DNA of 27,019 nucleotides from positions 1 to 27,019 of the IMG/VR virus record IMGVR_UViG_3300032069_000855; one strand, 5' to 3'. Below are positions 2,373 to 26,269 of the stretch, piece after piece. The notes under the pieces were generated by a model, which worked only from the letters and a program-made list of their open reading frames with translations, was not told where the DNA came from and ran no database searches. The stretch comes from a virus. The first letter of the stretch is position 1; every line of letters starts with the position of its first letter. The position numbers and the translations under genes were made by a program.

Positions 2373-2657
2373 CTATTCAAAAGGCTCGTATATTTTCAGT
2401 ATCACACTCTCTCCTGTGTGCTTGCTGTCCTCTCCCCATTCCACATAGGACTGAAGAACATAATCGCCACTGGCCGCCAGGTCCACGGAGGCAGTCACAT
2501 AATAAATCGTGTTGCTGTTGTACTGTTGAGCAGCCCATTCTGCTTCAGTCCCATCGGGCTTTTGCACCTTGATCTTCATGGCCGTGGCGCCGGTCAGATT
2601 CTGGCCGGTATCAAGCCGGATCTCGACTCCAACATCTCCCTTGTAGATCTTCGTCAT
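2373..2657 (-). CDS. BppU-like baseplate / tail protein
   Basis: A 94-residue all-beta protein opening MTKIYKGDVGVEIRLDTGQ and ending in EPFE. The LTGATAMKIKVQKPDGTEAEW core is typical of small phage proteins related to the N-terminal domain of baseplate upper proteins. It carries no signal peptide or enzymatic motif. Its start overlaps the stop of the kelch-repeat fibre gene by 4 bases (ATGA), so the two are translationally coupled. It likely forms a connector or base for the receptor-binding apparatus; this is inference from the family. Confidence 0.68.
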   Translation of the reverse strand: MTKIYKGDVGVEIRLDTGQNLTGATAMKIKVQKPDGTEAEWAAQQYNSNTIYYVTASVDLAASGDYVLQSYVEWGEDSKHTGESVILKIYEPFE

Positions 2658-4648
2658 AGCCTGGACCTCATGGCTCGCATTTTGGTGATCTTCGACTCGG
2701 CTGATGCTGGACCGGCCATCTCAGATCTGGCCTGTGCAGCCAGAGATGCGATGGATCTCATGGCGACTATGATCCTCACTTCGGCGGCGACAGCCTCTAC
2801 CAGGGATTCAGCATCGCTGCAAGCCACCGCAGCAGCCAGAAGACGGGCATCAGCTAAAATCTGGGATTGCGGCTCGCAGACCGCGAAGGCGGATTTCAGT
2901 ATGGCTGGCGTGGCAGCACCAGAACACAAGGACTCGACCATGGCCGAGACAAGCCTTCGGACCTCTGACTCTGCCAGCCCGGAAGAACTAGCAGAAGAGA
3001 TGGCAGAGACCCACTGAACCCAAATGATCCCAGCGTCAGCAAAACCGAACGATTCAGCCTCAATCGCTGCCAGGACGGCTCTCCAAGACTTGCCTTCTGC
3101 CAGGCCGAACGAGGCGGCTTCGGTGAGCGCCGAGATCGTGCGGATCGCTCTTGCTTCAGTCAAGCAGTGGGATTCGGCGCTTATCAGGCCCGAACTTGTT
3201 CTTAGAGCACCTGCAGATGAGAGGATGGATGATTTAGCCCTCACGCTGGCAGATGCCAGCTTAAGGGCGCTGCTCACTAGAGCCAGGGCTGCAGAGCAGG
3301 CCTCAACGGTGGCGAAACCGGATTTTAAGGGATGAGAGCTGGCGAGACCGGCTGATGCAGAGTCTATTATTGCGGCCACCGCCCTTAAAGCCGCAGGCGA
3401 GGCCAAAATCGATGAATCGGCATCCACCAATGCCGAAACTGCTTTCAGAATGGCAGCTTTAGCAGACGGCGAAGACCCCGCCTCAGCCAGGGCAGACACG
3501 ATCTTTTGAGCGCTGGCGATTGCTTGAGCTACAAGCTGGGCCTCGATAGTAGCAGAGCCGGATAGTATAGCATGAGCACTGGCAATTGCAGCTTCTAGCT
3601 GAGCCTCGATAGTAGCGGAACCGGATAGCTTGGCATGAACACTGGCCTGTCCTGCCGACGCTGAATCCGTGATAGCTGCTACAGCTCTGAATGCAATAGA
3701 TGAAGCAAAGCCGGAAGAAGCCATATCAGCAAGCGCTGAGATCGACCTTAGGGCGCTAGCAGTCCCGCTGAAATAGGATTCGGCATCGACCAGAGCTTCG
3801 GCCAGCACGTAGTTTATGGAGGCCGCAAGCACTTCGCAGACGCTTGAATAGCTCCCCGAATCACGCCCGCCCATGGAAATAGCATTCCCGGATAGGCCGC
3901 CTCCTGCTAGATAGTAGCGGGCGACATTCAGATCATCACTTGCGCTCCAGCTCGTCCCATCGTACTCTTCTGTGTCCCCTAAAAAGCCGCCATCGGTTCC
4001 TCCAAAGCAAATTGCATCAGAGGAGTTCCCGCCGCCTGCCAGTCCCTCCCTTGCTGTGCCCAGGCTCCCGGCAGAGCTCCAGGAAGTGCCATTGTATTTC
4101 TCAGCGGCGGCGGAATAATAATCTCCATCATAGCCGCCCATACAGATAGCATCTGAAGAATTGCCGCCGCATGCAAGGTAGTATCTGGCCGTGGAGAGGT
4201 TTCCGCCGCTGCTCCATGAGATGCCATTGTACTCTTCTGTGGCATCAAAAATTACGCTCTCTTCCGTCTCTTCATTATAATAATATCCTCCAACGGCGAT
4301 AGCATTGGAAGAGCTGCCGCCGCCAGCAAGGTACTTCTTGACTGCAGAAAGACTCCCTCCCCTGCCCCAGGAGCTGCCATTGTATTCCTCTGTGCTTTCA
4401 ATGCAGATGCCATCGCTAAACCCGCCCATGCAGATTGCATCTGCAGAGTTTCCTCCCCCTCCCGCTCCTGCTCTGCCTGTAGCCAGATCTCCGCCGCTGC
4501 TCCAGGATGTGCCGTTGAACTCTTCCGAGACATCCTCAAAATAGGAAGAACTGCTCTCTCCTCCAAAGGAGATAGCATCATCAGAATCGCCTCCGCCAGA
4601 GAGAGTATTGCGGCCTGTGTTGAGACTGCCTGCGGACTCCCAGGCCAT
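2654..4648 (-). CDS. Tail fibre: six kelch-like repeats plus Ala/Ser-rich helical repeats
   Basis: A 664-residue protein. The N-terminal 280 residues hold six kelch-like units with pattern EEYNGTSWSSGG..LxTAR..LAGGGNSSDAIxxGG, expected to fold as a six-bladed beta-propeller. The remaining 380 residues are highly Ala/Ser-rich with a repeating unit of about 22 residues (LRAVSALVDADSSxLAS type), predicted to form a long helical or fibrous stalk. The layout suits a receptor-binding fibre. I chose the ATG at 4648 because AAAGGAG lies 7 bases upstream and the start is 2 bases after the stop of the preceding gene; an upstream in-frame start would overlap that gene by 70 bases and lacks such a site. 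The propeller is N-terminal, unlike many fibres where the tip is C-terminal. Confidence 0.72.
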   Translation of the reverse strand: MAWESAGSLNTGRNTLSGGGDSDDAISFGGESSSSYFEDVSEEFNGTSWSSGGDLATGRAGAGGGGNSADAICMGGFSDGICIESTEEYNGSSWGRGGSLSAVKKYLAGGGSSSNAIAVGGYYYNEETEESVIFDATEEYNGISWSSGGNLSTARYYLACGGNSSDAICMGGYDGDYYSAAAEKYNGTSWSSAGSLGTAREGLAGGGNSSDAICFGGTDGGFLGDTEEYDGTSWSASDDLNVARYYLAGGGLSGNAISMGGRDSGSYSSVCEVLAASINYVLAEALVDAESYFSGTASALRSISALADMASSGFASSIAFRAVAAITDSASAGQASVHAKLSGSATIEAQLEAAIASAHAILSGSATIEAQLVAQAIASAQKIVSALAEAGSSPSAKAAILKAVSALVDADSSILASPAALRAVAAIIDSASAGLASSHPLKSGFATVEACSAALALVSSALKLASASVRAKSSILSSAGALRTSSGLISAESHCLTEARAIRTISALTEAASFGLAEGKSWRAVLAAIEAESFGFADAGIIWVQWVSAISSASSSGLAESEVRRLVSAMVESLCSGAATPAILKSAFAVCEPQSQILADARLLAAAVACSDAESLVEAVAAEVRIIVAMRSIASLAAQARSEMAGPASAESKITKMRAMRSRL
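2660..3800 (-). repeat. DNA encoding about 22-residue Ala/Ser-rich repeats
   Basis: This stretch encodes degenerate copies of an Ala-rich unit such as ALRAVSALVDADS and AVAAIIDSASAG. One local duplication is visible: SGSATIEAQL appears twice 22 codons apart. The composition produces long open frames on the opposite strand that are not genes. Confidence 0.7.
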
Positions 4649-4650
4649 TC

Positions 4651-5322
4651 CTATGCTCCTTTGAGCAAGCGCTTGCTGCGCTCGACCAATTTTGGCGGCA
4701 AAGGAATGCTCCGCCTCTCGCATTCGGCAAGCATGGTTCCGGCCTGGGCTATGATATTTACAGCACCGCCTACATCTTTGCCCGCTCGCATTGCTGCTGG
4801 TAGCTCTTGGAGGTAACGAATCGCAAGGCCCTGCAGCTCTTCTGTATCCTTGTTGTCATGATCAAAGGGAGCCGCAGCTTCCAGCTGAGCCTTGATCTGG
4901 CTCCACATCTCGATCTCCCGGAGCCGCTCCTTAGCCTCGTTCCTCATCCATGCGAGCTTGTAGGTGAGCCTGTCGCATTTCACCTTGAGCCGCTCCAGCT
5001 CGAATCCCTGGGCGCTCTTGATCAGCTCTTCAGCTTCGGCCAGATCGATCAGGGCTTCCCTGTAGTCAAAGCTAAGCATCATCAGGTTGCCGAACATGAC
5101 AACCTGCTCCAGCTTGGCCTGATGATATTTTGAGGCAGGCGTGGGATGCTTGAGGTCGTTCAAGACGCTGAACCTGGCTTCAGTTGGCGTCCTGAACATT
5201 GTTCGTGTAGCAACGGCCTGCATCAGCTCTGGCACCAGAGCCTGCAGCCTCTGCAGATCATCAGACTCCAGGACCTGGGATTTCTGGAGCTGAGCAAGTC
5301 CAGCGGCAGGCTGCTCTGTCAT
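4651..5322 (-). CDS. Helical virion-region protein, unknown function
   Basis: A 223-residue, mostly helical protein with charged stretches likely to form coiled coils (about residues 65-140: AEAEELIKSAQGFELERLK and on). There are no signal peptide, membrane segments or catalytic motifs that I recognise. The ATG overlaps the stop of the holin gene by 4 bases, so the two are co-translated. Its place between holin and fibre suggests a tail or baseplate part, or an assembly factor. The family is not recognised. Confidence 0.6.
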   Translation of the reverse strand: MTEQPAAGLAQLQKSQVLESDDLQRLQALVPELMQAVATRTMFRTPTEARFSVLNDLKHPTPASKYHQAKLEQVVMFGNLMMLSFDYREALIDLAEAEELIKSAQGFELERLKVKCDRLTYKLAWMRNEAKERLREIEMWSQIKAQLEAAAPFDHDNKDTEELQGLAIRYLQELPAAMRAGKDVGGAVNIIAQAGTMLAECERRSIPLPPKLVERSKRLLKGA

Positions 5323-6166: not shown

Positions 6167-7141
6167 CTACACTACAGCGCTGGCGTAGACTGCCAGATCC
6201 GAAGCCACGAGCTTGGGATCAAAGGACAGCTCAGCCTCTACCCTGTCGGACTTGAGCTCTTCCATCCTGAACTTCTTGATCCTGGACCCTAGCTTCGAGT
6301 TTCCGTATCTGCCCTTCCAAGCGAACAGATAGCCCGCGCTCGGGTTCTCGATGCTCGGCCTATCGGCTGCATAGGCCAGCAGAACCTGTCCCGATGCCAT
6401 GCGGCTCATGGCGGTTGCAGCCCCTTTGGGTGCAGTGTTGTATGTGCCGCGGGCTACGAGCACCTTCTCGACCTCGAACAGACTGGCCAGGATCTCAGGC
6501 GTGATAATGCCCCGCTGGGTGTACTGAATGCGACTGATGATGTCCGCATTGTCCTTGAGGGCCGACATCACGTCCGGGGAGATGACAAGACGATTTGGAC
6601 GCATGCCGGTTTGCTCCTCGACGGCATTCATCCAGACATCTATATCCTTGACCGGCTTGGAGCCGCTGGCGCTCCACTTCTTGAATTGGCTCGCTCCCGG
6701 CTCACCAGCAATGCCTGTATAGTTCGTGCTCCACACGCCAGCTTTGAGGTAGTTGCCCAGGAACTGTCTCTCGCGCTTGATGAGGAGCTTCTGAATGGCG
6801 AACTGCATGGCGTCTCTGTCGGGGTCGATGGGCTTGTCAGCGTTGTCTCTGGTGTCATCGTCCACGTCTTTGTGGAATGAGAATGTCCTGCAGGTGTAGT
6901 AGGGCGAGGTGTCGATATCGTAGTTCCCGCCCGCCGATTCGGTGGCAGGTGCCCTCTCCTCTGCCTCATCTCTGAGGAAGTCTCCCTTGTCGTAGACCAC
7001 GTAGTTATCCGACTGCTTATCTACGGGGACAATCGGGAATACGTCGGCTGAAATGAACATGTGAGCGCCCAGAATGACCTTAACAGCCAGGTTTCCGAGC
7101 AGGCTGTGAACATGGACATCTCCTCTGTTTGGTCTCGGCAT
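6167..7141 (-). CDS. Major capsid protein, HK97 fold
   Basis: A 324-residue protein with the layout of HK97-fold coat proteins: an early FISADVFPIVPVDKQSDNYV segment, a PYYTCRTFSFHKDVDDDT loop followed by a long helix with RERQFLGNYL (spine helix), MRPNRLVISPDVMSALKDN (A domain) and a beta-rich end. It assembles into the icosahedral shell. An excellent ribosome site (AAGGAGGTGA) sits 7-10 bases before the ATG, the strongest in the operon, which suits a high-copy product. No N-terminal delta domain is evident, in line with scaffolding being supplied by a separate protein. Its neighbours are a decoration protein upstream and the connector downstream. Confidence 0.85.
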   Translation of the reverse strand: MPRPNRGDVHVHSLLGNLAVKVILGAHMFISADVFPIVPVDKQSDNYVVYDKGDFLRDEAEERAPATESAGGNYDIDTSPYYTCRTFSFHKDVDDDTRDNADKPIDPDRDAMQFAIQKLLIKRERQFLGNYLKAGVWSTNYTGIAGEPGASQFKKWSASGSKPVKDIDVWMNAVEEQTGMRPNRLVISPDVMSALKDNADIISRIQYTQRGIITPEILASLFEVEKVLVARGTYNTAPKGAATAMSRMASGQVLLAYAADRPSIENPSAGYLFAWKGRYGNSKLGSRIKKFRMEELKSDRVEAELSFDPKLVASDLAVYASAVV

Positions 7142-7157: not shown

Positions 7158-8015
7158 TCAGGGCCTCGTATAGCCGATCATCAGCCAGATTGCACCCTCG
7201 GCAAAAGCAGTCACACTGGATGCTTCGATGCTGATCTTCTGGGTGGCTGAGAAAGCATTGTTCCCGGTGATCTCAGTTGCGGCAACCTGCACCCCTTTCG
7301 GCGTACAGTTGGCAGAAGTCAATGCCAAGACTCCGCCGGACAGGTCTGTGCTCTCGATCTCGGCGTTCAAGGTGGCGGCTCTGTCTGCTGTGGTGGCTGG
7401 CTTCTGGACGTGAGCCAAAATCTCGGTGATCGTCCCGGCAAATCCGGGCACCCATTCGGTCAGCAGATCGCCATCTGCGATATCGGCCAGAGGATTATGG
7501 AAGATCCACCACTCCTTGGTCTTCTGATAGCTGGGATTGGCCCCATGTCCACCAGTCTCGAACCTCATCCCGGCCACCGCTCCGTGATGCAGCACGACCC
7601 AGTTCGAGTCGTTGAAGAAGAGAACGTCTCCCTGCTCGCCCACAGGATAGGCTCCAGGAGTCTGCGGAAGAACGAGCACGGAATGCTCCTCGCCTGCAAC
7701 GCCTGCTTCCAGAGCTGTGGCCACTACAGGCTGGCCAGCCACTGCGGGCACAAGATGACCATTTGCGTCTGAAGCAAGGTCAGGGCTGTCGAGTGTCACA
7801 GTAGCGCCATAGACCGCGGGACTAATGCCCAAGGCCATGACAGAGCCGACCTGCCCGCTCTCAGGATTATCCTGCGAGATGCCTACGCACCTGGCGCCAG
7901 CGGTTCCTTTCACGAAATGGCCGTCTGTATCCAGCTTAATTGCGTGATAGATGGCCTCGCTGAGGTCCTCCCCGGCAATGCGGGAGAATCTGAAGACGGG
8001 ATACTCGATCGCCAT
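7158..8015 (-). CDS. Capsid decoration protein (DUF2190-like) with C-terminal beta domain
   Basis: A 285-residue protein. Residues 1-115 resemble the DUF2190 capsid-cement family: FRFSRIAGEDLSEAIYHAIK, then GTAGARCVGISQDNPESGQVGSV and a PAVAGQPVVATALEAG segment. Residues 125-285 form a second beta-rich part (VGEQGDVLFFNDSNWVVLHH, then FAGTITEILAHVQKPATTAD and GAIWLMIGYTRP) that looks like a jelly-roll or receptor-type domain. It probably binds the outer capsid and displays the extra domain. It sits between the scaffold-like and capsid genes, with a G-rich ribosome site before the ATG and a 2-base gap to the previous stop. Confidence 0.68.
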   Translation of the reverse strand: MAIEYPVFRFSRIAGEDLSEAIYHAIKLDTDGHFVKGTAGARCVGISQDNPESGQVGSVMALGISPAVYGATVTLDSPDLASDANGHLVPAVAGQPVVATALEAGVAGEEHSVLVLPQTPGAYPVGEQGDVLFFNDSNWVVLHHGAVAGMRFETGGHGANPSYQKTKEWWIFHNPLADIADGDLLTEWVPGFAGTITEILAHVQKPATTADRAATLNAEIESTDLSGGVLALTSANCTPKGVQVAATEITGNNAFSATQKISIEASSVTAFAEGAIWLMIGYTRP

Positions 8016-8017
8016 TC

Positions 8018-8911
8018 TCAGGCCACCCCCTTCACAGCTTCGGCTCGGGCCGCCTCATATTCATCGTACCATTCGGGATGATCGTCAAGCACCTTCTCGA
8101 TTGCATCCTCATAGGTCATGCCCGAGGTATCCTTTCTGACCAGTGCCTCGGCGGCCTTCTGAATCTTGCCCATGACTGAGCCGCCGCTGATGGCCCTATG
8201 ACTCCCGAACTCATCCCAAGCAGCGGACTTCTCCAGCAGATTATCGGCCGCCTTGAGCACGCTGTAGAGCTCTGCAAACTCGGCGGGATGATCTTCTCCC
8301 AGAATCTTCATTATGGGCGCATGCTTCTCTGCGGTCAGGCCGGGAATGTTGGGCAGAGCATCGGCCTTTTCGATGTAAGCCTTGGTGATCTCAGCATCCT
8401 TCAGCTCCTTGGCCAAGGCCTCGGCCTTTTCAGCCCTTTCTCTCGTGGCCTGGTTGTCTGCGGCCATCTTCTCGAAGAGCACCCGGACTCCGGGGTCCAT
8501 CTTCTCCAGCTGCTCTTTGCTGTAGCCGTAGCTGCCCTCGCCCTCGTCTTCATCCTTGTCTTCCTTGCCTTCCTTGCCCTCCTTCTCAGGCTCTTTGGGC
8601 TCAGGGTAGCCGCAGGCTTTGGCCAGGATGGCCAGCGTCTGTTCCGGCAGCTTGTCCTTGTAGGCCTTGAGAATGCTTCCAACAGTCCCAAGGACATCAA
8701 GGGATTCTTCGTCCAGCTTGGCCTCGGAGAGGGCCTTCCTCAACTCCTCATCCGGGGTTTCAGCTATGCTATTCAGGATCGCTTCCTTCATCTTTGCCTC
8801 TTTCACCAGTAGGTATTCCTTCCCGTTCGCTCCACGAGGAACGAACGACACTTCATCCAGCAGCCCGCTGATTATCAGGTCGTACTCTTTCAATGAGCAC
8901 CCCCCTGCCAC
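8018..8911 (-). CDS. Scaffold-like head assembly protein
   Basis: Up to 297 residues and strongly charged. It has an acidic low-complexity linker (residues 103-128, rich in Glu, Lys and Asp) and helices typical of scaffolding proteins (LEKMAADNQATRERAEKAEAL). Residues 7-40 (LLDEVSFVPRGANGKEYLLV and onward) match the tail end of XkdF-type protease domains, which usually continue the same chain. The frame overlaps the end of the polyprotein gene by 59 bases. The GTG at 8911 has no clear ribosome site; the TTG at 8893 follows AGGGGGGTG and is the better independent start. The gene may once have been, or may still be expressed as, part of the polyprotein. It lies directly upstream of decoration and coat genes, the classical scaffold position. 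Confidence 0.7.
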   Translation of the reverse strand: MAGGCSLKEYDLIISGLLDEVSFVPRGANGKEYLLVKEAKMKEAILNSIAETPDEELRKALSEAKLDEESLDVLGTVGSILKAYKDKLPEQTLAILAKACGYPEPKEPEKEGKEGKEDKDEDEGEGSYGYSKEQLEKMDPGVRVLFEKMAADNQATRERAEKAEALAKELKDAEITKAYIEKADALPNIPGLTAEKHAPIMKILGEDHPAEFAELYSVLKAADNLLEKSAAWDEFGSHRAISGGSVMGKIQKAAEALVRKDTSGMTYEDAIEKVLDDHPEWYDEYEAARAEAVKGVA

Positions 8912-11900
8912 CGATTGAGAACGCCCTGTAAATGCCGGACTTTATCTTGCCCCAAACCTCATCATCCAGGACGCGGACACACATCAACCAGGACCCGGCC
9001 TTGACAAGCACTCCCTCGAACCAGAAGTCGTTTTCAGCAATCCAGGACCGTACTATCTCTGCCTTGACTTTTCTGCGGGTATGACGGTCTCGAAACTCCC
9101 GGACGTACTGCTCGAAGTTTCGGGCCATCCGGGCGATTTCTTCTCTGGAGAGAACGTGGCCCTGTTTATCCACGGTGTCAGGTTCCGAAATTACGCCAAA
9201 AACGAGCCTTTTTCCTTCATCGGCTTTCAATATCGCGGCGTATCTCTGTTTTTTAAATGGGCACTCCTGAATATTTAAGACCTTTGGAGGTTGGCCAGGC
9301 TCAGCGGCCCACACTAGCTTCTCCTGGCCTTTTTCCTTCAATTCCTCAATGACATCCTCCAGCTTGTGGCTAGAAGTGTACGGCTCCTGGCTCTCCGGCC
9401 TGGAGATGACCCACACCCGCCCTTCTGAGGCGGGCATGTACTGCATCAGCACTCTGCCCTTGATCTTCTCGCCGTGCAGGAACACCTCCCTGCCGTGCTG
9501 CCGGGCAAAGCTGAACTCGTAGGTTCCAGCATCGAGCTGGAAGAACTTGGAGAACTTCTGGGAGGTGGAGCCCACACCCCCGGGCCCGGAAACGAAGGGC
9601 TTCTCCTCGGCAATAGTCAGCCAGGCGTGCGGCTGCTGCAGCTTAAAGGCGCCCTGCAGGCTGTCGGTTGGAGGCAGATGCAAAATCCTGGCCTCGCCCT
9701 GGCCTTTCTCTCTGATATCTTTGGTGGATCCCTCGAAGATCGTGAATCCCCATAGACGGGATTTGTCTATCTCTAGCCGGAGATCGCAATGCACGGAATG
9801 ATCTGTCTTGAGAAGCTCCTCATGGGAGAGCTTTGTCTCCTCCTCGGAGAGCCCCCGCCAGTGAGCCTGCAAGACAAACCGGCCTTTTCCAGAGGCTGGC
9901 ACCATCTGCCACCAGATCCTTTCATACTCGCGGGCGGCTATGTCCGAGCGGGTATCCTGGCCGTCATCCTGCTTGGCCACCTCCTGGATCTTGTCCATGA
10001 GCTGCTTGATCTTCCGGGAGACCTCGCCTGAGTTTCCATATCTATGCACGGCTGCAGGATGAGGCATCACGAAATCTGCGAGGTCCTCCAGTGCCAGGCC
10101 CGCCTGCTTCCCCAAAGCTACGATGACACGAGGATTGATCTCGAAAAGCTTCTGCATCAGATGCGGAGTCCAGGCCTCGACCTCCAGCTCCCCAGGTGCC
10201 CGAAGCTGGCCCTTTTCGTAGAGGACCTGGGGCACCAGATAGAGGAGAGCTACATCCTCTTTTTTCAGCCCGGCCGGTTCAAGGTAAAGACTCTGGAATA
10301 GCTCTCCCGGAGGGCCGACCATTGGCTCACGCCTGGCTCTCTCGCCCTCGTTCGGGCTGGCTGCCACGAACGCAATCTGAGAGCCCTCTCTTCCCCATGC
10401 CGGAACATCCTCTTTGCCTACCTCGACTTTCAGGACATGGCCACGCCGGGCCAGATCCACGGCCTGCGCCACGGTGTAGGCATCCCTCGATGAATCTGGC
10501 CCTACTACTGTCGGCTTTCCCCATGCTATCCTGACCTCCCCTTTGCTCTTGTTTAAGATGAGCAGCTCCTCAATGCGGACATTCAGGACTTGGCCGGGCT
10601 GAGAACGCAATTGCGTTACAAACGTATTTCCCAGCATCAGAAGATGATCCGAACGCAATTGCGTTCTATCTGCGTTCTTGGGTGGATCTCGCAAGCCGCA
10701 GAGGTAGGAGAAGCCGTTTTTCTTCTCCTGTACTTCGAGGACCTGGACCTTGAGCTCCAAAACGGTCTTGAATTTGGCCCAATCATCAGATCCGCCAGGA
10801 TGATAGGGCTTCAGAAGATCCTTGACGACCAAGCCCTCACTTGTTGGCTGTGAGGCTGCCCAGCGCCCGACGATCTCCAGCTCCTTCTGGCTGTCGAACC
10901 TTCGGACCTTGGAAAGCTGGATCTGAGGAGACTTCAGATCATCCACTACAGCAGCAAGGATAGCTTGCCTCTCGCCAAGCGGCCTCTGGCTGATGTCCTC
11001 ATTCAGGTTCAGGCAATCGAAGGCCACATAATAGGGCTCGAAGGCCGGATCTCCGGAGAGCATCTCCATGAGCTGAGTTCTGGGGATGATCCGGCCATGA
11101 TGATCGACGGCCAGCATCTCGCCGTCCAGGATGAGGCTCTTGTAGCCGCTGGCCTGCACGACCTGGACTATGCCCGGCAGATGGGAGGCCCGGTCCTCTC
11201 CCGAGTCCTCGAACCAGGCCGAGACATTCCCCTCTTGCAGGGAGACGATGCACCTGAAGCCGTCAAACTTCACTTCCCCGGCGAGCCTCGCTCCTTCCTT
11301 GATCTTCCTCTCGCACCAGGGCCAGAGCTCCGAAGTAGAGAAGAACTCGGTGTACCCGGCCATGAGGGGCTTTTGTGGCGGGAATCTGTCGCCAGGCTGC
11401 AGGGCCTTGACTATCTGCTTTTCCAAGGATTCCCGGCGCAGGACCAGAGAATAGAGAGGCACATGATCGGAGTGCGGCCCCAGGGGATTGTCGATGAAGT
11501 GCAGCCTTTGCAGCTTTCCAGGAGCGAGAGCTTTTCTGAGCGGCAGCCAGACATTATCCCCCTGGAGGAGGAAGTTCTCGCCGGCATCGTCTCTCCTGGC
11601 CCGGAGGAGCACATCGATATCCCTGGGCTTGTCCTTGGAGACAGCAGAGCCCACAAGGGAGGCGAAGTCCTTGACTAAAAGGACCTCGGCCGGTAGAGAA
11701 TCTAGAGCCTGGGCCACAGAAAGGGACATGCCCTTATGAAGCTGCAGGCTGGCCACGGCCTGGGCCAGAGGCTTGCTTGGATTGATCTGCAAGCCCCGGC
11801 GCTGGAACTCCGCAGAAACGAAGACGGCAGCGTTCACGATGTTCTCCACCGCCTTTCCCTTGGCCTGAGCAGCACCATACCACTGAGAGAGGCGCAGCCA

Positions 11901-11966
11901 GGCGGAGCGCACCTCCTCCTCCGAGGCGGCTTCGAGCCTGGGGGGAGTCATCTCGGCCAGCTTCAT
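8853..11966 (-). CDS. Polyprotein: NTase-like, ATP DNA ligase, UDG-like, LigD phosphoesterase, XkdF protease
   Basis: A 1037-residue protein. Residues 95-125 hold a nucleotidyltransferase-like signature (LVGSAVSKDKPRDIDVLL; GS then D-I-D). Residues 200-400 are an ATP-dependent DNA ligase: motif I EVKFDGFR with nucleophile K233, ILDGEM at 279-284, SEGLVVKD at 376-383 and WAKFK at 396-400; an OB-like region follows to about 490. Residues 529-660 resemble uracil-DNA glycosylase (VAASPNEGE, VGPPGELFQ, PRVIVALGKQA, MPHPAAVHR) but lack the family-4 iron-sulfur cysteines. Residues 696-860 resemble the LigD 3'-phosphoesterase (VLQAHW, HCDLRLE at 726-732). Residues 905-1025 match XkdF prohead protease (VFGVISEPDTVDKQG, FSIGG). 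The start overlaps the portal stop by 4 bases. Ligase and protease are clear; the other calls are weaker. Confidence 0.85.
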   Translation of the reverse strand: MKLAEMTPPRLEAASEEEVRSAWLRLSQWYGAAQAKGKAVENIVNAAVFVSAEFQRRGLQINPSKPLAQAVASLQLHKGMSLSVAQALDSLPAEVLLVKDFASLVGSAVSKDKPRDIDVLLRARRDDAGENFLLQGDNVWLPLRKALAPGKLQRLHFIDNPLGPHSDHVPLYSLVLRRESLEKQIVKALQPGDRFPPQKPLMAGYTEFFSTSELWPWCERKIKEGARLAGEVKFDGFRCIVSLQEGNVSAWFEDSGEDRASHLPGIVQVVQASGYKSLILDGEMLAVDHHGRIIPRTQLMEMLSGDPAFEPYYVAFDCLNLNEDISQRPLGERQAILAAVVDDLKSPQIQLSKVRRFDSQKELEIVGRWAASQPTSEGLVVKDLLKPYHPGGSDDWAKFKTVLELKVQVLEVQEKKNGFSYLCGLRDPPKNADRTQLRSDHLLMLGNTFVTQLRSQPGQVLNVRIEELLILNKSKGEVRIAWGKPTVVGPDSSRDAYTVAQAVDLARRGHVLKVEVGKEDVPAWGREGSQIAFVAASPNEGERARREPMVGPPGELFQSLYLEPAGLKKEDVALLYLVPQVLYEKGQLRAPGELEVEAWTPHLMQKLFEINPRVIVALGKQAGLALEDLADFVMPHPAAVHRYGNSGEVSRKIKQLMDKIQEVAKQDDGQDTRSDIAAREYERIWWQMVPASGKGRFVLQAHWRGLSEEETKLSHEELLKTDHSVHCDLRLEIDKSRLWGFTIFEGSTKDIREKGQGEARILHLPPTDSLQGAFKLQQPHAWLTIAEEKPFVSGPGGVGSTSQKFSKFFQLDAGTYEFSFARQHGREVFLHGEKIKGRVLMQYMPASEGRVWVISRPESQEPYTSSHKLEDVIEELKEKGQEKLVWAAEPGQPPKVLNIQECPFKKQRYAAILKADEGKRLVFGVISEPDTVDKQGHVLSREEIARMARNFEQYVREFRDRHTRRKVKAEIVRSWIAENDFWFEGVLVKAGSWLMCVRVLDDEVWGKIKSGIYRAFSIGGRGVLIERVRPDNQRAAG
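10604..10666. repeat. Two copies of palindrome AACGCAATTGCGTT inside the polyprotein gene
   Basis: The 14-base perfect palindrome AACGCAATTGCGTT occurs at 10604-10617 and again at 10652-10665, where it extends to 16 bases (GAACGCAATTGCGTTC). Both copies encode TQLRS in the same reading frame, within the OB-like part of the ligase. A related degenerate palindrome lies at 18021-18049 in the AT-hook/zinc-ribbon gene. Confidence 0.85.
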
Positions 11967-13378
11967 GCTGGCACCTCTTCATCCTGAGACGGCGATTGCA
12001 TGACTTCTGCGCCCTCATCTTCTCCTTCCGCTTCTGCATTCTCTTGAGATTGCGTTTGCGTTGCTGGCCGGAGCGGGAGGTCTGCCTGACTGCGAAGATG
12101 GTTCTCCAGGATTACATCGCCCCTCAGCCAGTCCGCCTTATAGCCCAGCTTCTGCAGGAAGCTGGCGAGCTGCTCAAGGTTGGGAATCTCCACCTTGCCG
12201 TGGACGTAATAAGGCAGCTTCTCCAGATCCTCGAAGATGGAAGGATTGAATTCGACGAGATCAGGAACGACTGAGGCGTTGATCTCCTCAACTATGATAT
12301 CCAAAATAGCCGAGATGGCCTGAGCGAAGAGCTTGCTTTTTGTTTCAGCGAGAGCATACGAGCCCTGCTTTCCCTGCCCGAGGAGCAGGAAGTCGGTCAT
12401 CATGCTTACGGCTATGGCACTCTTCCAGCGCATAATGGCCTGGTTGGTAGAGATCTGCCGGGTGCCGGAACTGGTGACCAGTTTCAGCTCATAGAGGAGA
12501 TGGCCGTTTTCGTCCCGCTCTGAAGAGAGGAGCAGGCCTTCGGTCTCATCGCGGCGCACGCTGGTTATCAGCGCCATGAAATCTTCATGCGCTGCAACGG
12601 CTTCCTCATCCTCCGGGTCCGGGTCGGCTATCTCCTTGGAAACATACAGGACAGGATAGCCTGCAAGGTCCCTCTCCATTCCTATGGCTTCGAAATCCTC
12701 CAGGTTGGTGGCGATATACCAGGCCCTATATGTGCGACGCAGGCCTGACTGCCCTTCAGGATTGTCCTTGGCCGATGACATTCGAAAATGGCAGCACTTC
12801 TCAATGGGCACCCGCAGTTCCTGAAAGTCGGGAGGAGCGAGCTGGATCATGGCCTGCAGGGTATCTGTATCCTCATCGTACTCCCAATCCTGCAAGGTCT
12901 CCTGAGCTCTGGGGGCAAGCTTGCGCACCCGAACCCGGCCATCATCGTACTGGCTGCGAAATCGCGGGTCCTTCTGGTCCCGGCCGCGGCAGATCTTGAA
13001 AACCTTCTCCAGCACCGCCCAGCCAAAGGGATACATGGTCAGGATTTCGGACAGGGTTGCAGGCCAGGAAAACTCCATGTCATACAGGCAGGACTCCAGG
13101 AACTCTGCGGCTTCCAGATCCCTTGAGCTGCTGCCGCCTGGCACCGCCCTCCAGGGAACCTGCTTGGCAACCATCTCGATAGCGAACAGCCCGCCGCCGA
13201 TAATGGCGTCATTGGTGCTCATGCGCTTGTAGATCTCAGCCCCCTTTGAGCCCTGCAGCTCGGGAAGCCACTCCTCGGCGATCCACCCGCCAAATCGGTT
13301 CAGGCCGGTTCGGCCCAGCTCAGAGAAGCCGCTGTTCGGCCTCTGAGACGATTTGATCTTCTTGAAGTTCTTGCTCAC
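11963..13378 (-). CDS. Portal protein (DUF935 / Mu gp29-like)
   Basis: A 471-residue protein with the hallmarks of the DUF935 portal family: STNDAIIGGGLFAIEMVAKQ near residue 55, then EFLESCLYDMEFSWPATLSEIL and MYPFGWAVLEKVFK. The middle has QAMIQLAPP and GQSGLRRTYRAWYI, followed by the LILGQ-like FLLLGQGKQGSYALAETKS and a long helix. Portals form the dodecameric ring at one vertex through which DNA is packaged by terminase. The C-terminus is Gln/Glu-rich and probably disordered. The GTG start overlaps the stop of the terminase nuclease frame by 4 bases. Family and context agree strongly. Confidence 0.88.
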   Translation of the reverse strand: MSKNFKKIKSSQRPNSGFSELGRTGLNRFGGWIAEEWLPELQGSKGAEIYKRMSTNDAIIGGGLFAIEMVAKQVPWRAVPGGSSSRDLEAAEFLESCLYDMEFSWPATLSEILTMYPFGWAVLEKVFKICRGRDQKDPRFRSQYDDGRVRVRKLAPRAQETLQDWEYDEDTDTLQAMIQLAPPDFQELRVPIEKCCHFRMSSAKDNPEGQSGLRRTYRAWYIATNLEDFEAIGMERDLAGYPVLYVSKEIADPDPEDEEAVAAHEDFMALITSVRRDETEGLLLSSERDENGHLLYELKLVTSSGTRQISTNQAIMRWKSAIAVSMMTDFLLLGQGKQGSYALAETKSKLFAQAISAILDIIVEEINASVVPDLVEFNPSIFEDLEKLPYYVHGKVEIPNLEQLASFLQKLGYKADWLRGDVILENHLRSQADLPLRPATQTQSQENAEAEGEDEGAEVMQSPSQDEEVPA

Positions 13379-13971
13379 GCACTCCTCCGGAACTTGGATC
13401 GTTTCCTTGCAACTCCCGGCCGGGATATCGAGGCCGGAGGCGAATAGCGGTTCAAGAGCTCCACAGCTCCGCAGACCGCATCCACCACATCGTCATGCCG
13501 AAAAACTGGAAAATTCGTGAACTCAGTTATCAGGTACTCGGACCAGGAGGCACCGGCCGCATAATACAGCATGCCGTTGCTCCCTTTGGCCGAGACCAGC
13601 AGCGCCCGGCTGGTCTTGTCTATGGCCATGGCCACCGGATGAAAAGCGACGCTCTTTAGCCGCGAGTCTCTCACCAGCGCCTGAAAAGAGGAGAGCTGAA
13701 AGCCATTGGTCTCGACCCCAACCAGCTTAACCTTCTGCCACCGGATCTCGTCCACGATGTGCTCATAGGCGTCAGGCCACTCCCAACGCCCGCGCAAAAT
13801 ATCGAGGATATAGACGTTCAGTGCCTTGTCCATGCCGACGGTGGCCACGACGGTATAATCCGCCCTGGTTTTCGTGCTGGTCGCCAGGTCGCAGAAGCTG
13901 CCGATTCGCAGACTCTTTCTGGAAACGGTGAGCGGCCGGGTGACCTCCAGTTCGTCCGCTATCTCATACAT
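13375..13971 (-). CDS. Large terminase, C-terminal nuclease part (split gene)
   Basis: A 198-residue frame carrying the RNase-H-like nuclease half of a phage large terminase. Acidic residues that would bind metal are visible: D28 in FCDLATS, E87 in GVETNG and D160/D161 in HDDVVDAV. It is in the same reading frame as the ATPase half, separated only by one TGA and five codons (13972-13989). The ATG at 13971 has only a weak ribosome site. Either translation re-initiates to make a two-subunit terminase, the TGA is read through, or the gene is inactivated by a point mutation. Joined, the protein would be about 506 residues, a normal size for the family. The portal gene follows with a 4-base overlap. 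Confidence 0.85.
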   Translation of the reverse strand: MYEIADELEVTRPLTVSRKSLRIGSFCDLATSTKTRADYTVVATVGMDKALNVYILDILRGRWEWPDAYEHIVDEIRWQKVKLVGVETNGFQLSSFQALVRDSRLKSVAFHPVAMAIDKTSRALLVSAKGSNGMLYYAAGASWSEYLITEFTNFPVFRHDDVVDAVCGAVELLNRYSPPASISRPGVARKRSKFRRSA

Positions 13972-13986
13972 GGATTTCCAAAAATT

Positions 13987-14895
13987 TCACGCCAGGACCT
14001 CGATAGGCCGGAAGAACTCGCGCCGGAACAGGTTGCCTGCCTTCATGATTGGAGCTTGCTGGTATTCAGACTCCCAGTCATAGATTGATGTCTCGCCCTT
14101 GATCGCATACAGAAGCTCAAGCGGGTACTTCTCCGGCCACAGGGCCTCTCCGGGCTTTCGGCCCAAAGGATCATTTTCCAGAGCAACGGCTGGCAGCTTG
14201 TACTGAACCCAGGGCGGCACGAACTTCTCCAGCTCGGCATCCACCTTGCGGCTCAGCATCCGGCCTGGCAGATCGTCGAGATGCCAGCGGGTGTTCATGA
14301 CGATGACCACAGAATAAGGAGCCCATGGCAGAGGATTAAGGCGGGTCCTGGCTGTGCCCGTCCACCAGTCCCAGATCCTGTTTCGGTAAGTGAGTGATTC
14401 GGCCTCCTCCCTTGATTTTATGGGATCATCGATGATGAGTACGTGGGCTGGCTTGCCGGTCACGGAACCAGAGGTGCCGGAACTGGACATGCCTCCGCCC
14501 TCGGTTGTGGACCAAAGATTCGCAGCCGCCGAATCGTCCGAGATCCTCACCCTGAGCTGATCAGAGTTGGCCTGAATGGTATTGCGGACCTTCTTTCCCC
14601 AGGTGGCGGCATAGTCGTCCTGGTAAGAGCCAAGAATGATCCTGGCCCAGGGGAATAGGTCCAGCAGCCAGACAGGGAACCAGTGCGAGACAAGCTCACT
14701 CTTGCCGTGCTGAGGAGGCATCGAGATTATCAATCTCGGATACTTCCCGGCCACCGCCAGGGACAAGATTATGGAGAGTTCCGCCAGGTGGCGGTATGAT
14801 CTCCACTTGCCAAGGGACAAATGCTCCGCGAGCGTTGCGGGCGTGGCTCTCCAGGCGTTCTGCAAGAGCTGCCGCGGATCGTATGGCATCGGCAT
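13987..14895 (-). CDS. Large terminase, N-terminal ATPase part (split gene)
   Basis: A 302-residue frame with the packaging ATPase: Walker A PPQHGKSE at residues 60-67, Walker B VLIIDD at 152-157 with a following SREEAES, and the coupling motif NTRWHLDDLP at 201-210. The family ending YDWESEYQQAPI..GNLFRREFF at about 272-295 is complete, and the chain then stops at a TGA just where the linker to the nuclease should begin. This motor pumps viral DNA into the procapsid through the portal. Its first 200 bases overlap the 3' end of the small terminase gene in another frame, which is unusually long. The family call is firm; whether the protein is functional depends on the TGA. Confidence 0.88.
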   Translation of the reverse strand: MPMPYDPRQLLQNAWRATPATLAEHLSLGKWRSYRHLAELSIILSLAVAGKYPRLIISMPPQHGKSELVSHWFPVWLLDLFPWARIILGSYQDDYAATWGKKVRNTIQANSDQLRVRISDDSAAANLWSTTEGGGMSSSGTSGSVTGKPAHVLIIDDPIKSREEAESLTYRNRIWDWWTGTARTRLNPLPWAPYSVVIVMNTRWHLDDLPGRMLSRKVDAELEKFVPPWVQYKLPAVALENDPLGRKPGEALWPEKYPLELLYAIKGETSIYDWESEYQQAPIMKAGNLFRREFFRPIEVLA

Positions 14896-22356: not shown

Positions 22357-22653
22357 CTAGGCTCTCGCCTTCCGCTGTTGATATTGCTCTCGCTTTGCTG
22401 CCGCCACCCTAAAAGCTTCCATCTTCTCTACAGCCTCGGCGGAGAGCTCCACCTCCGGCCAACGGTCGAGAATGGCCAGGTTCCGCAAGGTGAGTGGCCC
22501 GCACCACTGCTGCCGGTCCCGATTCCATTTGAATCTCATCCCCTCAAATCCCAGGGCCTTGCACCTGTGGCGAGTCTTGCCGCTGACGATTATAGAGAGA
22601 TCACGAACGGCCACAAAAATAACGGGGAGGGTCTTAAGCAGTGGCGGTTGCAT
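22357..22653 (-). CDS. Small protein with DUF5710-like motif
   Basis: A 98-residue protein. The segment RHRCKALGFEGMRFKWNRDR followed by QQWCGP resembles the 'KALGARWDxxxxxWYVP' pattern of DUF5710-type modules, often found in conjugative and viral DNA-handling proteins. The C-terminus is a charged helix. GGAGG lies 9 bases before the ATG, and the gene starts 20 bases inside the end of the ArdC-like gene. The domain match is weak and short. Confidence 0.55.
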   Translation of the reverse strand: MQPPLLKTLPVIFVAVRDLSIIVSGKTRHRCKALGFEGMRFKWNRDRQQWCGPLTLRNLAILDRWPEVELSAEAVEKMEAFRVAAAKREQYQQRKARA

Positions 22654-23494
22654 GCCCTTTTACCTCCGAAAGCTTGCCGCTCATTACGAATTCCACGGCG
22701 TCCTTGGCCTGCTTGCTGGCCTTCAGGACCCACTTAGGATTATTCTGGAGATGCTGGATCCAGGACTGAATATAGGCGGCGGAGTTCTGCAGGGTCTCGG
22801 ATGTATCGAGGGCTGCAATCTGGCAGAAGAAGGCGGCACCCATCTCGGCGGTTAGCTCCTCTTGGCTCCTTACGTCTTTGCCTACGTGATAGTTTCTGAT
22901 GGTGTCCCGGCCCAGCCTCCCAGCTCCTCCTGTCCAGTGAGTCAGCTCATGGAAGGCCGTAGCGTAATAAGCCTCGCTGCTCTCGAACTGGTCGAGCATG
23001 GGCAGATAAATCTTATCGCTATGCGGGCAGTAGTAAGCCTGCTCGGTGTCGATATCGATGCATGGGTTAGGCCTCCTTAGGAGCTCTTCAGCGCTCTGGA
23101 TCTGCTGATTATCCCTCTCCGGTGGATTCTTCTCCGGCAAGCCTTTTGTCTGGCACCAGTTGAAGACGGTGTAATATTTGAGGAAGCTTAGGACCTTAAA
23201 GGAGACCTCGCCCCTTTCGTTTTGCTCCTCCTTTACAATGCGGTCCACAAAAACGATGGGCTGGCCCTTCTCACCGGCCTTGATAGCTCCTCCCATCTTC
23301 TGAGCCTGCCGGAAGGTAAGCCAGTAGGGGCTCTCGTAATTCGATTGCAGGAGAATTGTATTGATTCCCTGGTATTCTTTGTTGGTAGCGTAAGATGCCG
23401 GGCCATTGATGGACCACGGCCGGCGCCAGGGAATTATGCCTTCCTCCAGTTGCTTTAGAATCTGGTCGGTCACGACCTTGAAGACGTCCTTCAT
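22634..23494 (-). CDS. ArdC-like antirestriction / ssDNA-binding metallopeptidase
   Basis: A 286-residue protein. Residues 1-115 match the ArdC N-terminal ssDNA-binding domain (DUF1738): LEEGIIPWRRPW, YQGINTILL, YWLTFRQAQKMGGAIKAGEK, then PIVF. Residues 140-280 are a zincin-like peptidase (MPTase-PolyVal type) with active-site FHELTHWTGG (H182-E-x-x-H186) and a downstream EELTAEMGAAFF whose E217 is a likely third zinc ligand. ArdC-type proteins protect incoming DNA against restriction on plasmids and phages. GAGGAGG sits just before the ATG. It stands in an early operon with small accessory genes, as expected for anti-defence functions. Confidence 0.85.
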   Translation of the reverse strand: MKDVFKVVTDQILKQLEEGIIPWRRPWSINGPASYATNKEYQGINTILLQSNYESPYWLTFRQAQKMGGAIKAGEKGQPIVFVDRIVKEEQNERGEVSFKVLSFLKYYTVFNWCQTKGLPEKNPPERDNQQIQSAEELLRRPNPCIDIDTEQAYYCPHSDKIYLPMLDQFESSEAYYATAFHELTHWTGGAGRLGRDTIRNYHVGKDVRSQEELTAEMGAAFFCQIAALDTSETLQNSAAYIQSWIQHLQNNPKWVLKASKQAKDAVEFVMSGKLSEVKGHATATA

Positions 23495-24704: not shown

Positions 24705-24727
24705 GTATGATGTGCCTAAATATGCAT

Positions 24728-26269
24728 ATGAAATCATTTACTAGAATCAAGAAGATAAATGGCCAGGAATACATCTACGAGATTACACCCTATTATGACA
24801 AAGAGAAGAAGCAAATTCGCCAGAAAAGTAAGTACCTCGGCAAGAATGTCAACGGAGTTCCAGTCAGAATGCGCTCCAAGGACCAAATTCCAAAGAAAGT
24901 TCTGTCGCATGGCGAATTTGTTCCCCTCAAAAAGATCGCAGAGGACCTTGAGCTGGAAAAGATTCTCACTGATGTCCTACCCAGCAAGGAAGTCTGGCCT
25001 GTCTTGACCCTGGCGATGAATTATGCCATACGTCCCAGAGCACTAACCCATATCCAGAGCTGGTATGAAGGCACAGTTTTGGCTGAGAGCCATCCTGATC
25101 TTCCCATCTCCTCCCAGAGCCTCTCTAGATTGCTAAGCCGTATCGGTGAGAGCACTGCGAATCTGGAATTTTCTCGCGGACTCATCCAACGAATATCCAC
25201 ATGCAGCACACTGGTCTATGACATAACTTCCATGTCATCTTACTCTCAGAGCATTAACCTCTTGGAGTACGGTTACAATCGCGATGGCCTCGATCTTCCT
25301 CAGATCAACCTGTCCCTTATTGTGGATAAGGATCTCGGCATACCGGTGATGTATGATCTTTATCCCGGAAGCATATCGGATGTCACCACCCTTAAGAATA
25401 CAGTCAAGAAAATAGAGGCTCAAGGCGTTCGAAATTATACCCTAATCTTGGATCGAGGTTTCTTCTCAACCGCAAATATCGAGGAGATGGTATCTGCCGA
25501 CTTATCATTCATCATTCCGCCAACAAGTACTCTCAAGAACGTCAAAGAAGCCATATCCTCCATTCATAGCAGCATCGATGATCCTGAGCACCTGAAGCTC
25601 TACGAGAAAGAACCGTTATTTGTCATGCCCGTGAACATCGAAGTTGGGGAAAACAAGCTGAAAGGATATGCATATTACGATCAGAAGCGAGAGCAGCAGG
25701 AGAGAAACACCTTCTATAAGCGGTTGTACGATTTGATGGAGGTGCTTAAGGCCAAGAACCTGAAGCCCTGGATGAATCCAGGAGAGGTTTTCAGGGAGAC
25801 TGCAAAGAGGGATGCCAAGTTCATCGAATGGAAGGCGCCTAACGGCAGGTTTGAGGTCTCTCTCAGGAAAAATGCAGTCTCTCAGGCCGTTAATAAAATG
25901 GGAAAGTTCATTCTGCTGTATCGGGGCGAGTTTTCCTGGATGGAGTGTCTTGCGCTTTACAGAAGCAAGGACATCGTCGAGAAAGGATTCGACGTGTTGA
26001 AGAATGACATTGAACTGATGCCGGCAAACCTGAGGACCGACAGCAGTCTAAGGGGATACCTGTTCGTCGCGTTCCTTGCTTTGATCTTAAGGATGAAGCT
26101 GATGAGGTTGATGATCGAGGCAGAGCTGAATAAAAAGTACTCAGTGGAAGGACTGCTCACTGAGCTTGAAAAGATCAAGATTATGATCTTGCCGGATGGC
26201 GAGAAGATCACCACTGAGATTACCAAGAAACAGCGCGAAATCCTGGACGCACTTCATATGTGTGCCTAA
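24728..26269 (+). CDS. IS1634-family DDE transposase
   Basis: A 513-residue protein with the family N-terminus (FTRIKKINGQEYIYEITPYY, a DNA-binding region) and an RNase-H-like catalytic core. The candidate acidic triad is D165 in VYDITSMSSYS, D242 in LDRGFFS and E418 in the YREK-like segment RSKDIVEKGFDVLK, which keeps E followed by K seven residues later. It cuts and joins the element's inverted ends. I chose the ATG at 24728 because of the TATA spacing; ATGs at 24707, 24710 and 24722 are also in frame. The stop codon lies inside the right inverted repeat. It appears intact. Confidence 0.88.
   Translation: MKSFTRIKKINGQEYIYEITPYYDKEKKQIRQKSKYLGKNVNGVPVRMRSKDQIPKKVLSHGEFVPLKKIAEDLELEKILTDVLPSKEVWPVLTLAMNYAIRPRALTHIQSWYEGTVLAESHPDLPISSQSLSRLLSRIGESTANLEFSRGLIQRISTCSTLVYDITSMSSYSQSINLLEYGYNRDGLDLPQINLSLIVDKDLGIPVMYDLYPGSISDVTTLKNTVKKIEAQGVRNYTLILDRGFFSTANIEEMVSADLSFIIPPTSTLKNVKEAISSIHSSIDDPEHLKLYEKEPLFVMPVNIEVGENKLKGYAYYDQKREQQERNTFYKRLYDLMEVLKAKNLKPWMNPGEVFRETAKRDAKFIEWKAPNGRFEVSLRKNAVSQAVNKMGKFILLYRGEFSWMECLALYRSKDIVEKGFDVLKNDIELMPANLRTDSSLRGYLFVAFLALILRMKLMRLMIEAELNKKYSVEGLLTELEKIKIMILPDGEKITTEITKKQREILDALHMCA

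Follow-up and report, generated by a model that had tools for sequence, protein, structure and literature searches.

The fusion gene and its neighborhood

The window, that is, the whole 27,019-base virus record analyzed here, carries on its minus strand a single gene (P0001, 8853..11966) that starts with ATG, is free of internal stops and encodes 1037 amino acids, with several enzymatic domains and a prohead protease joined in one chain (Table 1). The first-pass annotation, which was made from the letters alone, had proposed a frame of this extent within the head operon. Both the frame and its position stand, and the strand, absent from that annotation, is minus: the portal gene (phrog_113) adjoins on one side, and the scaffold-like ORF, a head protein and the major head protein lie on the other. 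The limits assigned at that stage to the ligase, UDG and XkdF domains likewise agree with those of the Pfam search.

Table 1. Domains of the fusion protein and flanking head genes in the window
Feature	Residues (sites)	Position	Strand	Basis
N-terminal helical domain	1-90	11697..11966	-	AF2 pLDDT ~96-98 for residues 1-70
Pol-beta-like nucleotidyltransferase signature region	91-190	11397..11696	-	invariance; NTP_transf_2 match
ATP-dependent DNA ligase adenylation domain	215-405 (K233, E283, E377, K398)	10752..11324	-	PF01068
Post-catalytic ligase segment (OB fold expected)	406-515	10422..10751	-	after motif V; low dN/dS
UDG-superfamily domain	517-660 (His636; motif A AASPN)	9987..10418	-	PF03167, PDB match, motif survey
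LigD-type 3'-phosphoesterase	668-900 (H702, H726, D728, R730)	9267..9965	-	profile and fold matches
XkdF (Peptidase_S78_2) prohead protease	905-1026 (H962, S1017)	8889..9254	-	Pfam, PHROG, BFVD
Terminase large subunit, two ORFs (ATPase 13987-14895, nuclease 13375-13971)		13375..14895	-	phrog_38 1.6e-55, 9.6e-24
Portal protein, immediately upstream of the fusion gene		11963..13378	-	phrog_113 4.6e-64
Scaffold-like ORF		8018..8911	-	weak matches to PHROG families without an assigned function
Head protein (PHROG 'head scaffolding'; possibly decoration)		7158..8015	-	phrog_673 7.5e-14
Major capsid protein		6167..7141	-	phrog_1005 5e-83

All segments of the fusion protein evolve under purifying selection, with pairwise dN/dS values between 0.06 and 0.30, and therefore, no domain looks released from selection; in nearly all pairwise comparisons, the 3'-phosphoesterase (PE) and the ligase are constrained at least as strongly as the protease. 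The N-terminal helical domain is kept in most relatives, and a fold search recovered no PDB match for it. In three relatives (L004, L007 and L008), about 75 additional amino acids (VKIEIEAND...KLLELLQYIKHVGNIGHSFSIVVDPGD) are present after query residue 75, between the helical domain and the nucleotidyltransferase (NTase) region.

Several other features of the window and of related loci are worth recording. The division of the terminase large subunit into ATPase and nuclease ORFs is found also in the relatives L001, L063 and L064, and in a close relative (L012:906-3029), an in-frame intein-like insertion of about 400 amino acids occupies the Walker A motif of the terminase ATPase (HGK|C...HN|SELV). 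A 689-aa ORF (2654-4723, minus strand), without a Pfam match, contains repeats of the form GGGSSSDAICMGG(Y/F).., after which comes a tail very rich in Ala and Ser. On the strand opposite to the head genes, a DDE transposase (24707-26269, plus strand; PF01609) marks an insertion sequence or the edge of a provirus.

Active sites of the enzymatic domains

In the case of the ligase, Pfam places PF01068 at residues 225-399 (E 1.5e-22), phmmer matches the segment to DNA ligases in the PDB, and motifs I, III, IV and V are all intact (EVKFDGFR, LDGE, EGLVVK and WAKFK, respectively). K233 is conserved in 62/62 homologues, the EG pair in 63/63 and K398 in 62/63; in about half of the relatives, Asn occurs in motif I, and either Asp or Asn in motif III. 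Two relatives, L011 (6624-7702) and L160 (an 898-aa ORF at 8018-10711), carry intein-like insertions exactly at ligase motif V, both starting with CLPPxTPIF; the one in L011 has Cys as its first residue and HN/Ser at its end. Inteins usually occupy the active sites of working enzymes.

The PE domain is missed by both Pfam and NCBIfam in the full-length protein, and therefore, fragment, profile-profile and fold searches were applied. The isolated fragment matches LigD_N at E 0.021, under the Pfam cut-off; profile-profile comparison with archaeal LigD_N gives a probability of 91 (E 1.1e-6); a sequence-profile search of the PDB yields four matches, 5dmp, 3p43, 3p4h and 3n9b, all of which are LigD PE structures; and a Foldseek search with the AF2 model, which is confident (pLDDT 89), returns seven PDB matches at E<0.001, again, all seven of them LigD PE structures (best 1.4e-6). 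In addition, the relative L115 passes the LigD_N cut-off (2.6e-15). These approaches agree in bearing out the LigD-type PE that had been suggested from the sequence alone.

In the LigD of P. aeruginosa, His42, His48 and Asp50 serve for manganese, and Arg52, His84 and Tyr88 for phosphate, with His84 and Tyr88 required for activity (PMC8656161). The counterparts of the first four of these residues, His42, His48, Asp50 and Arg52, are H702, H726, D728 and R730, all invariant (68/68), and that of the His84/Tyr88 pair is unrecognizable, K, Q, R or E appearing at the aligned place in a part of the alignment that is uncertain. The family has invariants of its own, K775, W782 and E827, with H824 nearly so (63/68). 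Because His84 and Tyr88 lack an evident counterpart and the family shows these invariants, the PE active site may have been rebuilt around its own conserved residues, with H824 as a stand-in for the missing phosphate-binding residue being a matter of speculation. By fold and metal site, the case for membership in the LigD superfamily is strong, the phosphate-binding pair being the part that goes unmatched.

The assignment of the segment that precedes the PE to the UDG superfamily holds. It is backed by the profile match (PF03167, residues 524-644, E 4.1e-11), by a match to a family-4 UDG in the PDB (6.9e-7) and by the motif B His636, which is kept in 45/47, but the hallmarks of family 4 are missing: there is no Cys in residues 505-665, so that the Fe-S cysteines are absent, and the motif-A Glu (GEAPG) is absent as well, the motif reading AASPN in the fusion protein and mostly GASPG in its relatives. 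Position 576 is Tyr in the clade of the fusion protein as opposed to Asn in 33/47. Lacking the motif-A Glu, the Fe-S cysteines and the common Asn, this domain weakens the earlier proposal that the protein repairs uracils.

As for the nucleotidyltransferase proposed for the N-terminal part, the signature GS...DID (hG[GS]...DhDh) is present and practically invariant (G106, D116 and D118 in 56/56, S107 in 55/56), but the NTase fold was not recovered: the AF2 model has a pLDDT of 78 overall and no PDB matches at E<1, and the local hhalign match to NTP_transf_2 (probability 51) extends over 27 columns, that is, the signature alone. The best candidate for the third carboxylate, position 173, is D in 45/56 homologues and S in 11/56; gap filling by this protein is weakened because it has Ser, in common with its clade, where those 45 have the candidate third Asp. 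The region should be called an NTase signature rather than an NTase, and, judging by the residues present, the active sites of both the UDG-like and the NTase parts are altered in this clade.

The protease and the scaffold-like gene

The C-terminal domain matches XkdF (PF14550) at residues 910-1023 with an E-value of 1e-21 and a score of 77.6 against a cut-off of 24 bits, and this segment also has a PHROG match to head maturation proteases and fold matches in BFVD. The putative active-site residues H962 and S1017 are conserved in 63/64 and 64/64, respectively. The next ORF, which is scaffold-like, shares 59 nt with the fusion gene but is read in another frame. The residues at its start (LDEVSFVPRGANGKEYLLVK) correspond to the C terminus of XkdF-type proteins encoded by a single ORF, as judged by comparison with psiM100 ORF12: the protease ends in ...FSIGGRG, and the segment matching VSIVDKPAVPKAKYLSIK starts the next ORF. 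Protease and scaffold are thus split here, and therefore, the cargo-protease and the scaffold are two proteins in this family. A programmed frameshift into the next ORF at the G6 run in the overlap was considered and rejected, given that L008, L010, L020 and distant relatives lack the run, and that the next gene has a separate start in L026, L027 and L031.

We also rejected a methyltransferase-XkdF fusion in Lactococcus and Rhizobium phages, an idea that came from annotations and a PHROG name: the two proteins inspected consist of protease and scaffold-like sequence only. The gp33 protein of Lactococcus phage 28201 (L206:3878-4927), annotated as 'DNA methyltransferase', is such a misannotated XkdF protease without a methyltransferase.

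Recurrent fusion of swappable modules to head proteases

We ran the full-length protein, the PE and the N-terminal region as queries against IMG/VR and clustered the matches at 85% identity. Of the resulting 71 non-redundant ORFs with a PE, 62 extend in frame to XkdF; a contig end truncates two more, and XkdF is missing from the other seven. The latter include two (L069 and L115) whose in-frame fusion partner belongs to another prohead-protease family (DUF2213/head maturation protease), one (L025) directly upstream of a protease-scaffold-capsid fusion gene, and four (L092, L103, L107 and L111) in which the next ORF looks protease-scaffold-like by eye and has no library match. With 62 non-redundant in-frame PE-XkdF homologues, the linkage of PE and protease is not a chance fusion, and the joining of enzymes to a prohead protease proposed in the first-pass annotation is confirmed. 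The same homologues refute an assembly artefact or fortuitous read-through of adjoining genes: beyond a frameshift inside the gene of one relative (L006), we found nothing to support this explanation, to which we give practically no weight, as the 62 in-frame fusions come from many metagenomes and are joined by a Methanothrix MAG.

Across the family, the domains follow the order NTase-(methyltransferase)-ligase-(UDG)-PE-XkdF; UDG has changed place in one case (L029). Homologues that share the order seen in the window adjoin portal genes, and the outcome that the first-pass annotation had named as fatal to its proposal, ligase and protease never joined in one chain, was not observed; more generally, the ORFs upstream of the relatives match portal or MuF-type families, and those downstream match major head proteins. 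The enzyme set varies by the addition of further modules to the chain. These include the anti-CBASS protein Acb1 (L026, 1.4e-23), Dam (L186, 6.3e-26), an ADP-ribosyltransferase (L103, 1.6e-40), 2H phosphoesterases (L118 and L138), DHH (L132) and MBL (L115 and L186). Two long chains are a head-protease fusion of 2845 aa (L188:3625-12159) that contains consecutive C5 cytosine methyltransferases (five stretches, E 5.7e-162), and an 1806-aa chain (L103:3470-8887) in which two ADP-ribosyltransferase exoenzyme domains lie among ligase and methyltransferase modules, with the PE on the next ORF.

The host of the virus is Methanothrix. The sole match in species genomes, which is the closest locus with a host name, is in a Methanothrix MAG and is 81% identical; genomes of the family of this MAG contain syntenic head modules with shorter fusions as well as decayed copies. 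In a Methanothrix provirus (L063:6422-7918, minus strand), a ligase-UDG-XkdF chain has a ligase motif I without the lysine (PLFDGCR) and a motif III without the Glu (ILDGVAL), L064 and L066 encode UDG-XkdF fusions, and the ligase in L066 is a remnant. The smallest fusion kept in Methanothrix proviruses is therefore UDG-XkdF, and because the L063 provirus keeps these two domains next to a ligase devoid of the catalytic lysine, ligation is not always needed.

Among named phages, we found no full-length relative of the fusion protein. A partial parallel comes from ANMV-1, an archaeal virus of methane seep sediment, in which an NTase-ligase-PE chain (AJP62006, annotated as 'ATP-dependent DNA ligase') directly follows the portal gene; it differs from the fusion protein in that UDG and XkdF are absent from the same chain. 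The preceding ANMV-1 protein, AJP62005 (L205:1913-3193), annotated as 'MutT-like phage hydrolase', is itself misannotated and is the portal protein (3e-22).

A putative cargo protein of the procapsid

The recurrence of these fusions with changing enzyme sets suggests that enzymes protecting DNA are packed inside the virus particle. The reading that we favor, with moderate confidence, is that the fusion protein is targeted to the procapsid as cargo, serves to protect or repair the genome of the virus and is carried into the next cell. The idea that the enzymes travel as cargo had been put forward from the sequence of this one gene, and it is supported by context, namely, the obligate linkage to prohead-protease genes and the swaps with early counter-defense effectors. 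Under this scenario, the gene product would be a head-assembly polyprotein of a tailed Methanothrix virus, with the C-terminal XkdF protease serving as the address that directs the chain to the procapsid interior, next to the scaffold encoded by the following gene. The N-terminal enzymes would enter as cargo. During maturation, the protease in their own chain would probably trim or release them, and they would remain with the packaged DNA and reach the next cell along with it. In that cell, or even earlier, inside the capsid, the PE would heal 3' ends and the ligase would seal nicks or ends, whereas the UDG-like and NTase-like parts might add recognition of bases or ends, their chemistry being uncertain in this clade. 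The purpose, conceivably, is early protection of the genome, from damage or from cuts made by host defense, before viral genes are expressed. Against this reading weigh the unrecognizable His84/Tyr88 pair of the PE, the altered UDG and NTase sites, the substitutions in ligase motifs I and III of about half of the relatives, and the lysine-less ligase of the L063 provirus.

The steps of this scenario draw on different observations. Loading into the procapsid is proposed because of the obligate protease linkage, the two independent fusions to another protease, the position between portal and capsid genes and the exchange with early effectors. Encapsidation is thus suggested by genomic context, whereas we infer cleavage and release, retention in the mature head and delivery by ejection with the DNA from the precedent of P1 DarA and the argument made for polyvalent proteins. 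As for enzymatic activity and biological purpose, protecting or mending the genome around entry seems the simplest option because a 3'-end healing enzyme and a ligase are the most regular cargo.

The main rival is that the enzymes act in the producing cell, at the site of packaging: gathered at the procapsid through their fusion to the protease, they would seal nicks or clean ends of the DNA as it is packaged and then be degraded, without being delivered. The gene does belong to a late head operon, beside terminase and portal, a ligase combined with 3'-end healing would fit the removal of nicks, and the position of the protease permits the clearing of internal proteins. However, the Acb1, ADP-ribosyltransferase and methyltransferase modules of the relatives make little sense at packaging alone, and internal proteins such as P1 DarA are kept and ejected (PMC12810830), so we regard this possibility as unlikely, if worth keeping in mind. 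It seems less probable again that the repair domains serve the inner head scaffold by binding DNA or as structural elements, their catalysis being vestigial. The altered UDG and NTase sites, the missing His84/Tyr88 pair of LigD in this clade, the provirus with a lysine-less ligase and the dual part of P1 DarA in head assembly and protection all lend some credence to such a structural role; yet across very divergent relatives, the residues that bind metal in the PE and the lysine of the ligase show essentially no variation, the dN/dS of PE and ligase is no higher than that of the protease in nearly all comparisons, and other XkdF proteins, such as psiM100 ORF12, mature heads without any such domains.

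Counter-defense could alternatively be the main role, with the set disarming nucleotide-signaling or DNA-modifying immunity and the ligase and PE acting on host nucleic acids or signals. The Acb1, 2H and MBL modules of the relatives, together with the precedent of polyvalent proteins (PMC5512222), are compatible with this possibility, but in most members of the family, the modules are enzymes of DNA ends (PE and ligase) rather than hydrolases of nucleotide signals, and the window protein itself offers no hint of a signal substrate; we consider this option improbable.

Relation to known systems

The fusion family is best read as a repair-centered branch of the published polyvalent-protein idea. 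Polyvalent proteins, described in 2017, are multidomain, virion-injected proteins in which an assemblin-like peptidase is always C-terminal (PMC5512222). They share with the fusion family the combination of several disparate enzymes in one chain with a C-terminal protease, the 2H, ART, methylase and NTase themes, and the predicted delivery with DNA (Iyer et al. 2017, PMC5512222). Unlike in polyvalent proteins, the modules of the fusion family belong to DNA-end repair (ligase, LigD PE, UDG), the protease is the head protease itself, encoded in the head operon, and the hosts include methanogenic archaea; the terms 'DNA ligase' and 'glycosylase' are absent from the text of the polyvalent-protein paper (PMC5512222). 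The first-pass statement that no such system had been described therefore needs qualification: the fusion is absent from the literature searched, but virion-injected polyvalent proteins have been on record since 2017 (PMC5512222). In the open-access literature that we searched, we came across no account of the repair-centered set, of its size or of its occurrence in methanogen viruses.

Other systems resemble parts of the arrangement. The bacterial NHEJ ligase LigD also combines PE and an ATP-dependent ligase in one chain, whereas the fusion protein adds the NTase signature, UDG and the prohead protease, has a PE without recognizable His84/Tyr88, and contains no AEP-type polymerase (POL) domain of LigD that Pfam detects. 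In phage P1, DarA is an internal antirestriction protein that is cut by the prohead protease and co-ejected with the DNA (PMC12810830). The P1 proteins DarA and Hdf together with Pro thus offer the closest likeness in terms of internal head proteins, one of them protease-cut and co-ejected for DNA protection; unlike the fusion, however, DarA and Hdf are encoded by separate genes, serve in antirestriction rather than repair and are not fused to the protease (PMC12810830). African swine fever virus packages its ligase, PolX and AP endonuclease in the virion (PMC12172490), but this is an unrelated eukaryotic virus, in which these are separate proteins without a protease fusion. Finally, ORF12 of the Methanothermobacter virus psiM100/psiM2 is an XkdF-type protease of a methanogen virus whose gene likewise lies between those for portal and capsid; it differs in that protease and scaffold are in one ORF and no enzyme cargo was detected.

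Beyond the gene in the window, we see roughly even chances that the family represents an undescribed, widespread class of tailed-virus head proteins in which the protease is also an encapsidation tag for swappable enzymes. The core of such a set would be DNA end repair (NTase, ligase, 3'-phosphoesterase and UDG-like domain), present in the virions of archaeal viruses, and probably of bacterial ones, so that the genome is mended or shielded on arrival; some lineages would add counter-defense enzymes to the same chain. Should this be the case, viruses of prokaryotes, like some large DNA viruses of eukaryotes, would deliver ready-made DNA repair to the cell inside the capsid. The prohead protease would serve as a general handle by which cargo is loaded, a natural capsid-loading tag. 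The family would then provide a sequence-defined route to virion-delivered effectors, including undescribed counter-defense enzymes, and the need of incoming viral genomes for end repair in anaerobic archaea would become testable.

Apart from the fusion gene, the same virus encodes a second protein on the polyvalent theme, at 22634-23494 of the window (minus strand), which combines an ArdC N-terminal domain with the zincin MPTase-PolyVal (PF08401 5e-29 and PF18818 2e-32, respectively).
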